A DNA stretch of 64,000 nt from Caulobacter vibrioides (GTDB taxonomy: Bacteria > Pseudomonadota > Alphaproteobacteria > Caulobacterales > Caulobacteraceae): contig NZ_CP023315.3 in assembly GCF_002310375.3 (NCBI RefSeq), positions 1,178,001-1,242,000 of the forward strand, written 5' to 3'. This document shows, piece after piece, positions 14,371 to 49,208 of this stretch; the first letter of the stretch is position 1, and the number at the start of each line of letters is the position of its first letter. Position numbers and translations under genes: made by a program. The notes under the pieces were generated by a model, which did not search any database, was not told the origin of the DNA, and saw only the letters and a program-made list of their open reading frames with translations.

Positions 14371-14433
14371 TGCGGTTCAGCGGGACCGGGCCCCTCTGGC
14401 GAGCAATGCAAGTGCTCGTGATGTCGGACCGCA

Positions 14434-14512
14434 TCGGGTGTTCTCGATGTCTTGGGTCCGGCCGCCTAGCCCCCCTCCCCAAAAGGCGCCGCCTGTCGTC
14501 GAGAACACCCGA
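14434..14512 (+). promoter_or_regulatory. Leader inverted repeat upstream of the zinc-ribbon/htpX operon
   Basis: A perfect 14-base inverted repeat, TCGGGTGTTCTCGA (14434-14447) and TCGAGAACACCCGA (14499-14512), flanks 51 bases. It lies between the candidate promoter and the first gene. In RNA it would form a stable stem ending 27 bases before ATG 14540. Confidence 0.6.
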
Positions 14513-14539
14513 GCATCCTTTTTGGACCGGAGGTTCCGA

Positions 14540-14845
14540 ATGCCGCTTCTGATGTGCCCCAACTGCGACGCCTCGATGCAGGCCGTGCAACGCGCCAGCG
14601 TCGAGTTCGACATGTGCCCCCGCTGCCGGGGCGTCTGGCTGGATCGGGGCGAGCTCGAGAAGCTGATGGCGATGGAGCGCGACGAGACCCAGGCGGTCTA
14701 TGGCCAGCCCAAGCCCTACAGCCGGCCCGATCATCATCACGACCATGGCCATAGCCACAGCGCCAAGCGCCATGACGACGACGACTATCGTCGCCACGGC
14801 CACCACAAGAAAAAGCGTTTCGACCTGTTCGACATCTTCGACTGA
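14540..14845 (+). CDS. Zinc-ribbon (TFIIB-type) protein with His-rich tail
   Basis: A 101-residue protein with an N-terminal zf-TFIIB ribbon: LMCPNCDASM, then FDMCPRCRGVWLDRGELEKLM, four cysteines in two CPxC knuckles. The C-terminal half is a flexible His/Asp/Lys-rich tail (HHHDHGHSH, GHHKKKRFD) that could bind metal. ATG 14540 is supported by GGAGG at -10; longer versions of the frame run through the leader hairpin. It starts nine bases before htpX and probably forms an operon with it, suggesting a role in membrane protein quality control. The function is unknown. Confidence 0.88.
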   Translation: MPLLMCPNCDASMQAVQRASVEFDMCPRCRGVWLDRGELEKLMAMERDETQAVYGQPKPYSRPDHHHDHGHSHSAKRHDDDDYRRHGHHKKKRFDLFDIFD

Positions 14846-14854
14846 CGAAAGACG

Positions 14855-15805
14855 ATGAACCACTTCAAGACCTACATGCTGCTGGCGGGCCTGACGGCCC
14901 TGTTCATGGCCGCCGGCTTCCTGATCGGCGGCGCCACCGGCATGATGATCGCGCTGGTCTTCGCCCTGGCCATGAACGCGTTCTCGTACTGGAACGCCGA
15001 CAAGATCGTGCTGCGGACCTATGGCGCGGTCGAGGTCGACGAGAGCCACCCCGAGCCGCTGATCCGCAACTATGTGATCGACACGGTCGAGATGGCCCGC
15101 TCGGCCGGCCTGCCGCGTCCGCGCATCACGGTGATCGACAGCGCCCAGCCCAACGCCTTCGCCACCGGCCGTGACCCCGATCACGCCGCCGTGGCCGCCA
15201 GCACGGGCCTGCTGCAGCTTCTGACCCGCGAAGAGATCCGCGGCGTCATGGCCCACGAACTGGCCCACGTGAAGAACCGCGACACCCTGGTCATGACCGT
15301 GACGGCGACCATCGCCGGCGCGATCTCGGCCCTGGCCAACTTCGCCTTCTTCTTCGGCGGTTCGCGCGATGAAGAGGGCAACGGCGGCGGTCTGGGCGGC
15401 ATGATCGGCGCGATCCTGATCGCCATCCTGGCGCCGATCGCGGCCATGCTGGTGCAGATGGCCATCAGCCGCGCCCGCGAGTACGAGGCCGATCGCATCG
15501 GCGCGCAGATCGCCGGCGACTCCGAGTCGCTGGCCCGCGCGCTGCAGAAGATCGAGGCCTATGCCCGCGGCGGCTATGAGAACGTCCAGGCCGAGCGCAA
15601 TCCGGCCACCGCCCACATGTTCATCATCAACCCGCTGGCCGGGAAGGGCGCCGACAACCTGTTCTCGACCCACCCGGCGACCCACAACCGCGTCGAGGCC
15701 CTGATGCGTCTGGGCGTGGAGCGGGGCGCGCGTCGTCCGGCTATGGCGGCGGCGACGTCGTCCAGCGTGCCGCTGAGCGGCGAGCGCGGCGGCCCCTGGA
15801 GCTGA
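14855..15805 (+). CDS. htpX: HtpX membrane zinc metalloprotease
   Basis: A 316-residue M48B peptidase that degrades damaged inner-membrane proteins. Two N-terminal transmembrane helices (about 5-45) precede the active site HELAH (about residues 131-135, with Glu132 catalytic). Two further hydrophobic segments follow (about 150-170 and 185-205). The third zinc ligand is the Glu in [11 protein letters not shown]. The C-terminal [14 protein letters not shown] is characteristic. It is co-transcribed with the zinc-ribbon gene upstream. The last 25 residues are low-complexity. Confidence 0.95.
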
Positions 15806-48275: not shown

Positions 48276-48280
48276 TCCCA

Positions 48281-48407
48281 TCCTCCACCGTGCAACGGGG
48301 GAGGGGGACCGCGAAGCGGTGGAGGGGGCGCTGTAGGCCGAAGCGCCCCCTCCGTCACGGCGCGGACTCGCGCCGCGCCACCTCCCCCGCCATGCGGGTG
48401 AGGAGGA
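48281..48407. repeat. Palindromic GGGGGAGG repeat, family A (copy 6, divergent)
   Basis: TCCTCCACCG...CGGGGGAGGGGG at the left and CCCCCTCC...CACCTCCCCCG-...-AGGAGGA at the right. It shares the plan of family A but the loops are different (CGAAGCGGTGGAGGGGGCGC). It fills the space between DUF2793 and the riboswitch. Confidence 0.7.
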
Positions 48408-48444
48408 ATTGACCCGGCGCCGACAACCCGCTAAACGCCGCCCA

Positions 48445-48566
48445 CCTTTGGGGAGTAGCCGCCCGCGCCTATCAGCGGGCCCCGCCGTCAACACACTTGA
48501 TCTTCCGGATCATGGCGCGGGGAAGGGAAGCGGACTTGCAGCTTCCTTGGCGAGACCAATGGCGCC
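48445..48566 (+). promoter_or_regulatory. yybP-ykoY manganese riboswitch
   Basis: The conserved elements appear in order: CTTTGGGGAGTAGCC (L1 side), a GCCCGC/GCGGGC stem, then CGTCAACACACTTGATC, the second conserved loop side. A variable arm follows, then CCTTGGCGAGACCAATGG closing P1 through TTTGG/CCAA. These match the Mn2+-sensing yybP-ykoY aptamer, normally found before manganese exporters. Here the gene after it is a UPF0016/GDT1 exporter, which fits exactly. Confidence 0.88.
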
Positions 48567-48576
48567 GATCGTCATC

Positions 48577-48620
48577 CGGGCCGGGTGGGGTATCGACGCT
48601 ATTGGCATGCGCCCGGCCCG
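48577..48620 (+). promoter_or_regulatory. Expression-platform hairpin of the manganese riboswitch
   Basis: CGGGCCGGG (48577-48585) pairs perfectly with CCCGGCCCG (48612-48620). It ends at the GAGGA ribosome site of the exporter gene and is followed by GTTTT. It could either sequester the ribosome site or act as a weak terminator. Confidence 0.6.
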
Positions 48621-48632
48621 AGGACTGTTTTC

Positions 48633-49208
48633 ATGGAAAGCCTGCTCGTCTCGACCCTGGTCGTGGCCATCGCCGAGATCGGCGACAAGACTCAGCTTCT
48701 GGCCATCATCCTGGCCACGCGGTTCAAGAAGCCGATCCCGATCATCATGGGCATCCTGGTGGCGACGCTGGCCAACCACGCCCTGGCCGCCACGGCGGGC
48801 TACTGGGTCGCCGACTTTCTCAGTGGCGTCTGGTTCAGGTGGGCCATCGCCGTCTCGTTCATCGCCATGGCCGCCTGGGCCCTGATCCCCGACAAGGCCG
48901 ACGACGAAGAAGGGGATGCGGCGGGCCGCTATGGCGTGTTCCTGACCACCACCATCGCCTTCTTCCTGGTCGAGATGGGCGACAAGACCCAGATCGCCAC
49001 GGTCGCCCTGGGCGCCAAGTTCCAGTCGATCGCCTTGGTCGCCGCCGGCACGACCCTTGGGATGATGCTGGCCAATGTCCCGGCCGTTTATCTGGGCGAG
49101 GCGGCGACCAAGGTTGTGCCGCTGAAATATGTGCGCATCGGCGCGGCGGTGATCTTCCTGGCGCTGGGGGTGTGGCAGGCGGCGGAACTGCTGGGGGTTC
49201 TGAAGTAA
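48633..49208 (+). CDS. UPF0016/GDT1 family manganese exporter
   Basis: A 191-residue integral membrane protein with the duplicated signature E-x-GDKTQ: AIAEIGDKTQLLAIILATRF (about 12-20) and LVEMGDKTQIATVALGAKF (about 118-125). Six transmembrane helices are expected. Bacterial and eukaryotic relatives (MneA, GDT1, TMEM165) transport Mn2+ or Ca2+. ATG 48633 sits after the riboswitch platform with an AGGA site. The yybP-ykoY riboswitch in the leader indicates induction by manganese. Confidence 0.92.
   Translation: MESLLVSTLVVAIAEIGDKTQLLAIILATRFKKPIPIIMGILVATLANHALAATAGYWVADFLSGVWFRWAIAVSFIAMAAWALIPDKADDEEGDAAGRYGVFLTTTIAFFLVEMGDKTQIATVALGAKFQSIALVAAGTTLGMMLANVPAVYLGEAATKVVPLKYVRIGAAVIFLALGVWQAAELLGVLK

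Follow-up and report, generated by a model that had tools for sequence, protein, structure and literature searches.

The leader of the GDT1-type gene at 48633-49208 in a 64,000-nucleotide stretch of Caulobacter vibrioides DNA (the window, meaning the whole stretch analysed) raises the question of how a Mn2+ aptamer is connected to the ribosome site that it precedes. The pairing of this aptamer with an exporter gene is textbook knowledge, and we focus on the part that could matter, the platform in between, where two crossing helices are conserved from Caulobacter to the Burkholderiales.

The GDT1 leader carries a yybP-ykoY Mn2+ aptamer

A covariance-model search matched 48438-48548 on the forward strand to Rfam RF00080, the yybP-ykoY Mn2+ aptamer, with 49.0 bits (E 5e-10), above the curated cut-off of 45. 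This bears out the riboswitch class named in the initial annotation, which had called for such a search, and the match is the only one to RF00080 in the 4.14-Mb genome. The three conserved blocks of the aptamer were found in the 5' to 3' order that had been described, ahead of the GDT1-type gene: GGGGAGTAGC (48450-48459), which occurs once in the 64-kb window against 0.04 expected occurrences, GTCAACACACT (48487-48497) and GCGAGACC (48550-48557). These L1/L3 blocks are largely invariant among 44 related leaders (clade 1, see below). One relative (L005) has GCGAGACT in place of the otherwise conserved GCGAGACC, and its platform seems intact apart from that.

The gene directly 3' of the aptamer had likewise been recognised correctly, as it matches the GDT1 profile PF01169 with 142.5 bits in two stretches; the RNA is thus the leader of a Mn2+ homeostasis gene, a trait of RF00080 members. 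For the promoter, we relied on conserved positions upstream of GGGGAG, where position -41 is T in 83 of 86 leaders and position -18 is A or T in all 86. The window fits this pattern with TTGACC-N16-CTAAAC, which we take to be a promoter with the Caulobacter consensus in mind, so that the transcript would start near 48442. A generic sigma-70 scan found no promoter at the riboswitch leader. The main elements of the locus are as follows.

48409-48436, forward strand: predicted promoter, TTGACC (48409-48414) and CTAAAC (48431-48436), from conserved positions upstream of GGGGAG
48438-48557, forward strand: Mn2+ aptamer (yybP-ykoY), by RF00080 match, including GGGGAGTAGC, GTCAACACACT and the 3' block GCGAGACC
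48633-49208, forward strand: GDT1 (UPF0016) cation/proton antiporter, probable Mn2+ exporter (PF01169)

Judged by its sequence, the leader is a genuine and ordinary yybP-ykoY riboswitch that is predicted to bind Mn2+, and both the aptamer and its placement before an exporter gene are already known biology. Further upstream, between the end of a DUF2793 gene (48275) and the putative promoter, GC-rich inverted repeats can be seen by eye at 48280-48400. The window contains a second match to an RNA family, a terC RNA (RF03067, 67 bits) at 14378-14436 on the forward strand, which precedes genes for a Zn-ribbon TFIIB-like protein (14438-14845) and an M48 peptidase (14855-15805) and not directly a terC gene.

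Two crossing helices lie between the aptamer and the ribosome site

The initial annotation had described a perfect 9-bp hairpin ending at GAGGA, and this was verified: CGGGCCGGG and CCCGGCCCG form an inverted repeat at 48577-48585/48612-48620 with a 26-nt loop, the sole perfect 9-bp repeat reported in 48540-48660, and pairing ends on the first G of GAGGA. We refer to this helix as B/B'. A second, longer helix, absent from that annotation and here called A/A', is formed by 48556-48569 (CCAATGGCG-C-CGAT) with 48592-48605 (ATCG-A-CGCTATTGG) and comprises nine pairs, a mismatch and four further pairs. Strand A consists of the 3' strand of the aptamer switch helix P1.1 together with the bases that follow it.

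48445-48451, forward strand: P1.1 5' strand, CCTTTGG, pairing with 48556-48562 with one U-U mismatch (100% pairs in 44 of 44 leaders)
48556-48569, forward strand: strand A, the P1.1 3' strand and following bases (CCAATGGCG C CGAT), pairing with A' and backed by covariation
48577-48585, forward strand: strand B (CGGGCCGGG), located apically in the A/A' hairpin, pairing with B', from comparison
48592-48605, forward strand: strand A' (ATCG A CGCTATTGG), in the B/B' loop, pairing with A
48612-48620, forward strand: strand B' (CCCGGCCCG), pairing with B and reaching the ribosome site, from comparison
48620-48624, forward strand: predicted Shine-Dalgarno (SD) sequence GAGGA, 8 nt upstream of ATG, from sequence and from paired nucleotides in the B/B' duplex model

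Since strand A' sits in the loop of B/B' and strand B in the apical part of A/A', the two helices cross, and duplex models leave only about 5-9 nt to join A' to B'. Full A/A' and full B/B' should therefore exclude each other. We also considered their coexistence in one pseudoknot and rejected it on loop length, the geometry of H-type pseudoknots serving as the yardstick by which this joint is too short. The earlier proposal that GAGACC competes for pairing holds insofar as its CC and the following bases pair with A'; its competitor is not the 9-bp hairpin itself.

Both helices are conserved among related leaders

A perfect 9-bp repeat in a single sequence is unremarkable in this GC-rich window, which contains 47 perfect 9-mer repeats with loops of 15-35 nt (0.73 per kb), and the significance of B/B' comes from its conservation. 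Among 150 relatives, counting the own genome, RF00080 had a match at E≤0.001 in 93 and a score above the cut-off in 62, and 90 of the 92 matching relatives outside the own genome were retrieved (G007 and G059 were left out). With the window copy included, 86 of 91 loci have the GGGGAGTAG motif and, after it, the start of a GDT1 gene, the regular expression having missed motif or gene in L014, L022, L023, L048 and L061. By the same rule, 51 of 80 GDT1 loci from named genomes, one of which (L109) is an empty artefact, contain motif and gene; these include Sphingomonas, Novosphingobium, Phenylobacterium, Acidovorax, Duganella and Pandoraea. Leaving out L005 and L011, which have no standard GAGACC, gave a set of 84 leaders. 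Covariation was assessed in 44 of these (clade 1) and in another 25, of which 24 are distinct (clade 2), the other 15 being too divergent to align. With 43 loci from named genomes, a set of 127 leaders was obtained and thinned by similarity to 69 divergent ones.

For A/A', at most 5 of 100 dinucleotide shuffles were as good as the real sequence in 78 of 84 leaders, with a median z of -3.5. The window's own A/A' is weaker, with 6 of 100 shuffles equally good; 1387 of 5950 random stretches were as good as this helix and 14 of 5950 as good for both helices. Pairs of A/A' were changed on both sides at 4 of 12 positions in clade 1 and at 6 of 17 in clade 2, and in many relatives the helix reaches about 20 pairs. 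In both clades, none of 500 shuffles and no slid version reached the covariation score of the whole structure (clade 1, 44 leaders, 0.117 vs 0.092; clade 2, 24 distinct leaders, 0.225 vs 0.139). In P1.1, pairing is 100% standard in each of the 44 clade 1 leaders, but the helix is nearly invariant there and so gives no covariation signal.

In clade 1, 96.2% of cells in B/B' pair, mostly as invariant or G-U pairs, and one pair is changed on both sides (44 leaders), and in the corresponding helix of clade 2 this applies to 3 of 7 pairs (24 distinct leaders). Within the divergent set, the own partner ranked among the best five in 44 of 69 leaders for A', in just 20 of 69 for B/B' and in 7 of 69 for P1.1. 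In duplex models of 68 divergent leaders, one of the 69 being too short, the best B/B'-type duplex took up two or more nucleotides of the predicted SD in 67; in the window, perfect pairing does not extend past the first G of GAGGA. On these comparative grounds, we accept B/B' as a real helix adjoining the predicted ribosome site. The two helices behind the aptamer are both conserved, and their crossing predicts that they exclude each other. The order of A/A' and B/B' recurs in Caulobacterales, sphingomonads and Burkholderiales and, in outline, in E. coli mntP. In a Polaromonas leader (L161), the anti-SD bases and strand B are both kept but set apart by the insertion of a small hairpin.

The masking of the ribosome site by the hairpin, as put forward in the initial annotation, has comparative support; that Mn2+ opens the hairpin is not derivable from the pairings.

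Direction of the Mn2+ response

P1.1 has been seen in published structures (PMC6754395), and Mn2+ is described as stabilising it against invasion by a downstream strand (PMC6754395 and PMC11087558). In the model that we prefer, the leader would adjust synthesis of the GDT1 Mn2+ exporter. Without Mn2+, A' would invade P1.1 and the long A/A' hairpin would form. With Mn2+, P1.1 would hold strand A and leave the lower half of A/A' open, and B/B' should be permitted, since A' is the invader against which P1.1 is stabilised and A/A' excludes B/B'. Judging from relatives only, the net outcome may be Mn2+-induced expression, with A/A' as the off state, which might act through early termination or decay and not as a U-tract terminator; B/B' would be the helix of the Mn2+ state, tolerated or melted by the ribosome. 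We lean towards this reading, an ordinary Mn2+-ON riboswitch, by a modest preference, because related exporters are induced by Mn2+ and because E. coli mntP, itself reported as Mn2+-ON, shares the helix order.

The pairing logic itself counts against it. More P1.1 in Mn2+ means less A/A' and more B/B', and hence a closed ribosome site, a prediction in conflict with the Mn2+ induction of related exporters. It is conceivable, if rather unlikely, that Mn2+ frees strand B and lets B/B' close the ribosome site, GDT1 translation being lowered or capped by Mn2+ and the leader being an OFF switch or a limiter. The order and exclusivity of the helices fit an arrangement of aptamer, anti-sequestor and sequestor, and SD nucleotides are paired in B/B' in nearly all of the divergent leaders, as given above. 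Folding of 69 leaders with the P1.1 strand blocked gave a drop in SD accessibility exceeding 0.2 in 27, a rise in 1 and little change in 41, so that the site is masked more often than freed. Against this stand the reported Mn2+ induction of related exporter genes with the same aptamer, the little physiological sense of a substrate that represses its own exporter, and E. coli mntP, which is reported as Mn2+-ON and folds with the same helix order. We regard as somewhat more doubtful still a wider claim, that of an undescribed platform common to the GDT1 leaders of Alpha- and Betaproteobacteria which closes the ribosome-site helix in its Mn2+-bound and not in its free state, such that Mn2+ would cap or repress exporter translation, with an opposite effect or none on transcription.

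Masking of the SD by the beginning of the coding region when A/A' is formed was considered separately by folding 68 leaders. It was rejected, SD accessibility being 0.35 with the own coding sequences and 0.34 with synonymous controls.

In a simpler model, the 9-bp hairpin is all that masks the ribosome site in the absence of Mn2+, and the 3' strand of the aptamer opens it when Mn2+ is present. This would account for a conserved hairpin that ends at GAGGA, but the GAGACC strand has its conserved partner in A', within the hairpin loop, so that Mn2+ would favour the hairpin, and we consider this model improbable. We give just as little credence to B/B' or A/A' as an intrinsic terminator, even though the window has a T-rich spacer 3' of the SD and a few Burkholderiales leaders (L134, L150, L129) have 5-6 U directly after A'. 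A scan of 48280-48700 detected nothing resembling a terminator, whether behind one of the two helices or elsewhere. The bases after A' in the window are CATGCGCCC, and the run of T occurs only past the SD, so the weak terminator offered as an alternative role of the hairpin was dropped. That the hairpins arose by chance in GC-rich DNA behind a genuine aptamer is very improbable: the background frequency of perfect 9-bp repeats would allow it, but covariation in two clades speaks against it, as does the recurrence of the helix order in named alpha- and betaproteobacterial genomes.

The crossing-helix platform predicts how Mn2+ reaches the ribosome site, and this prediction is at odds with the expected induction. 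Settling the sign of the platform would show the mode of action of many proteobacterial GDT1 riboswitches. We found no description of a crossing-helix platform in the literature titles and abstracts searched, a scope with subscription literature mostly outside it.

Comparison with known systems

With the RF00080 class, the window shares the aptamer match, the conserved blocks and the place before a Mn2+ exporter gene, and its aptamer shows no differences from the class. It also resembles the UPF0016/GDT1 Mn2+ riboswitches of V. cholerae and V. parahaemolyticus mneA and of B. pertussis BP3410, presumably a GDT1 family member, in aptamer class and kind of gene; the Mn2+ response was measured in those systems, and the window is likened to them by aptamer and gene. 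Of 333 bacterial strains that were screened and have a UPF0016 gene, 328 are said in PMC7380456 to carry it under a yybP-ykoY riboswitch, and V. cholerae mneA is cited there as Mn2+-induced. Induction by Mn2+ is likewise given for V. parahaemolyticus mneA (PMC13274385) and for BP3410, named a calcium:cation antiporter in PMC8546581, which also describes a short RNA of ~200 nt in Mn-free medium. The B. pertussis promoter motif TGCTACAAT, sought in the Burkholderiales leaders, was present in L200 only, where nothing marks a Bordetella, and a Bordetella leader was not identified among the retrieved loci.

In the L. lactis yybP-ykoY switch, as in the window, the 3' strand of P1.1 competes with a downstream strand (PMC11087558). 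The competitor described there is an intrinsic terminator, whereas the window lacks a U tract and has a further helix, crossing the first, that reaches the ribosome site. E. coli mntP, reported as Mn2+-ON in PMC11647493, folds (L172, 1560-1690) with an A/A'-like hairpin and with GCUGGGG/CCCCGGU just before the SD, like the window. It differs in that this helix stops before AGGAC and in that the gene belongs to the MntP family, not to GDT1.
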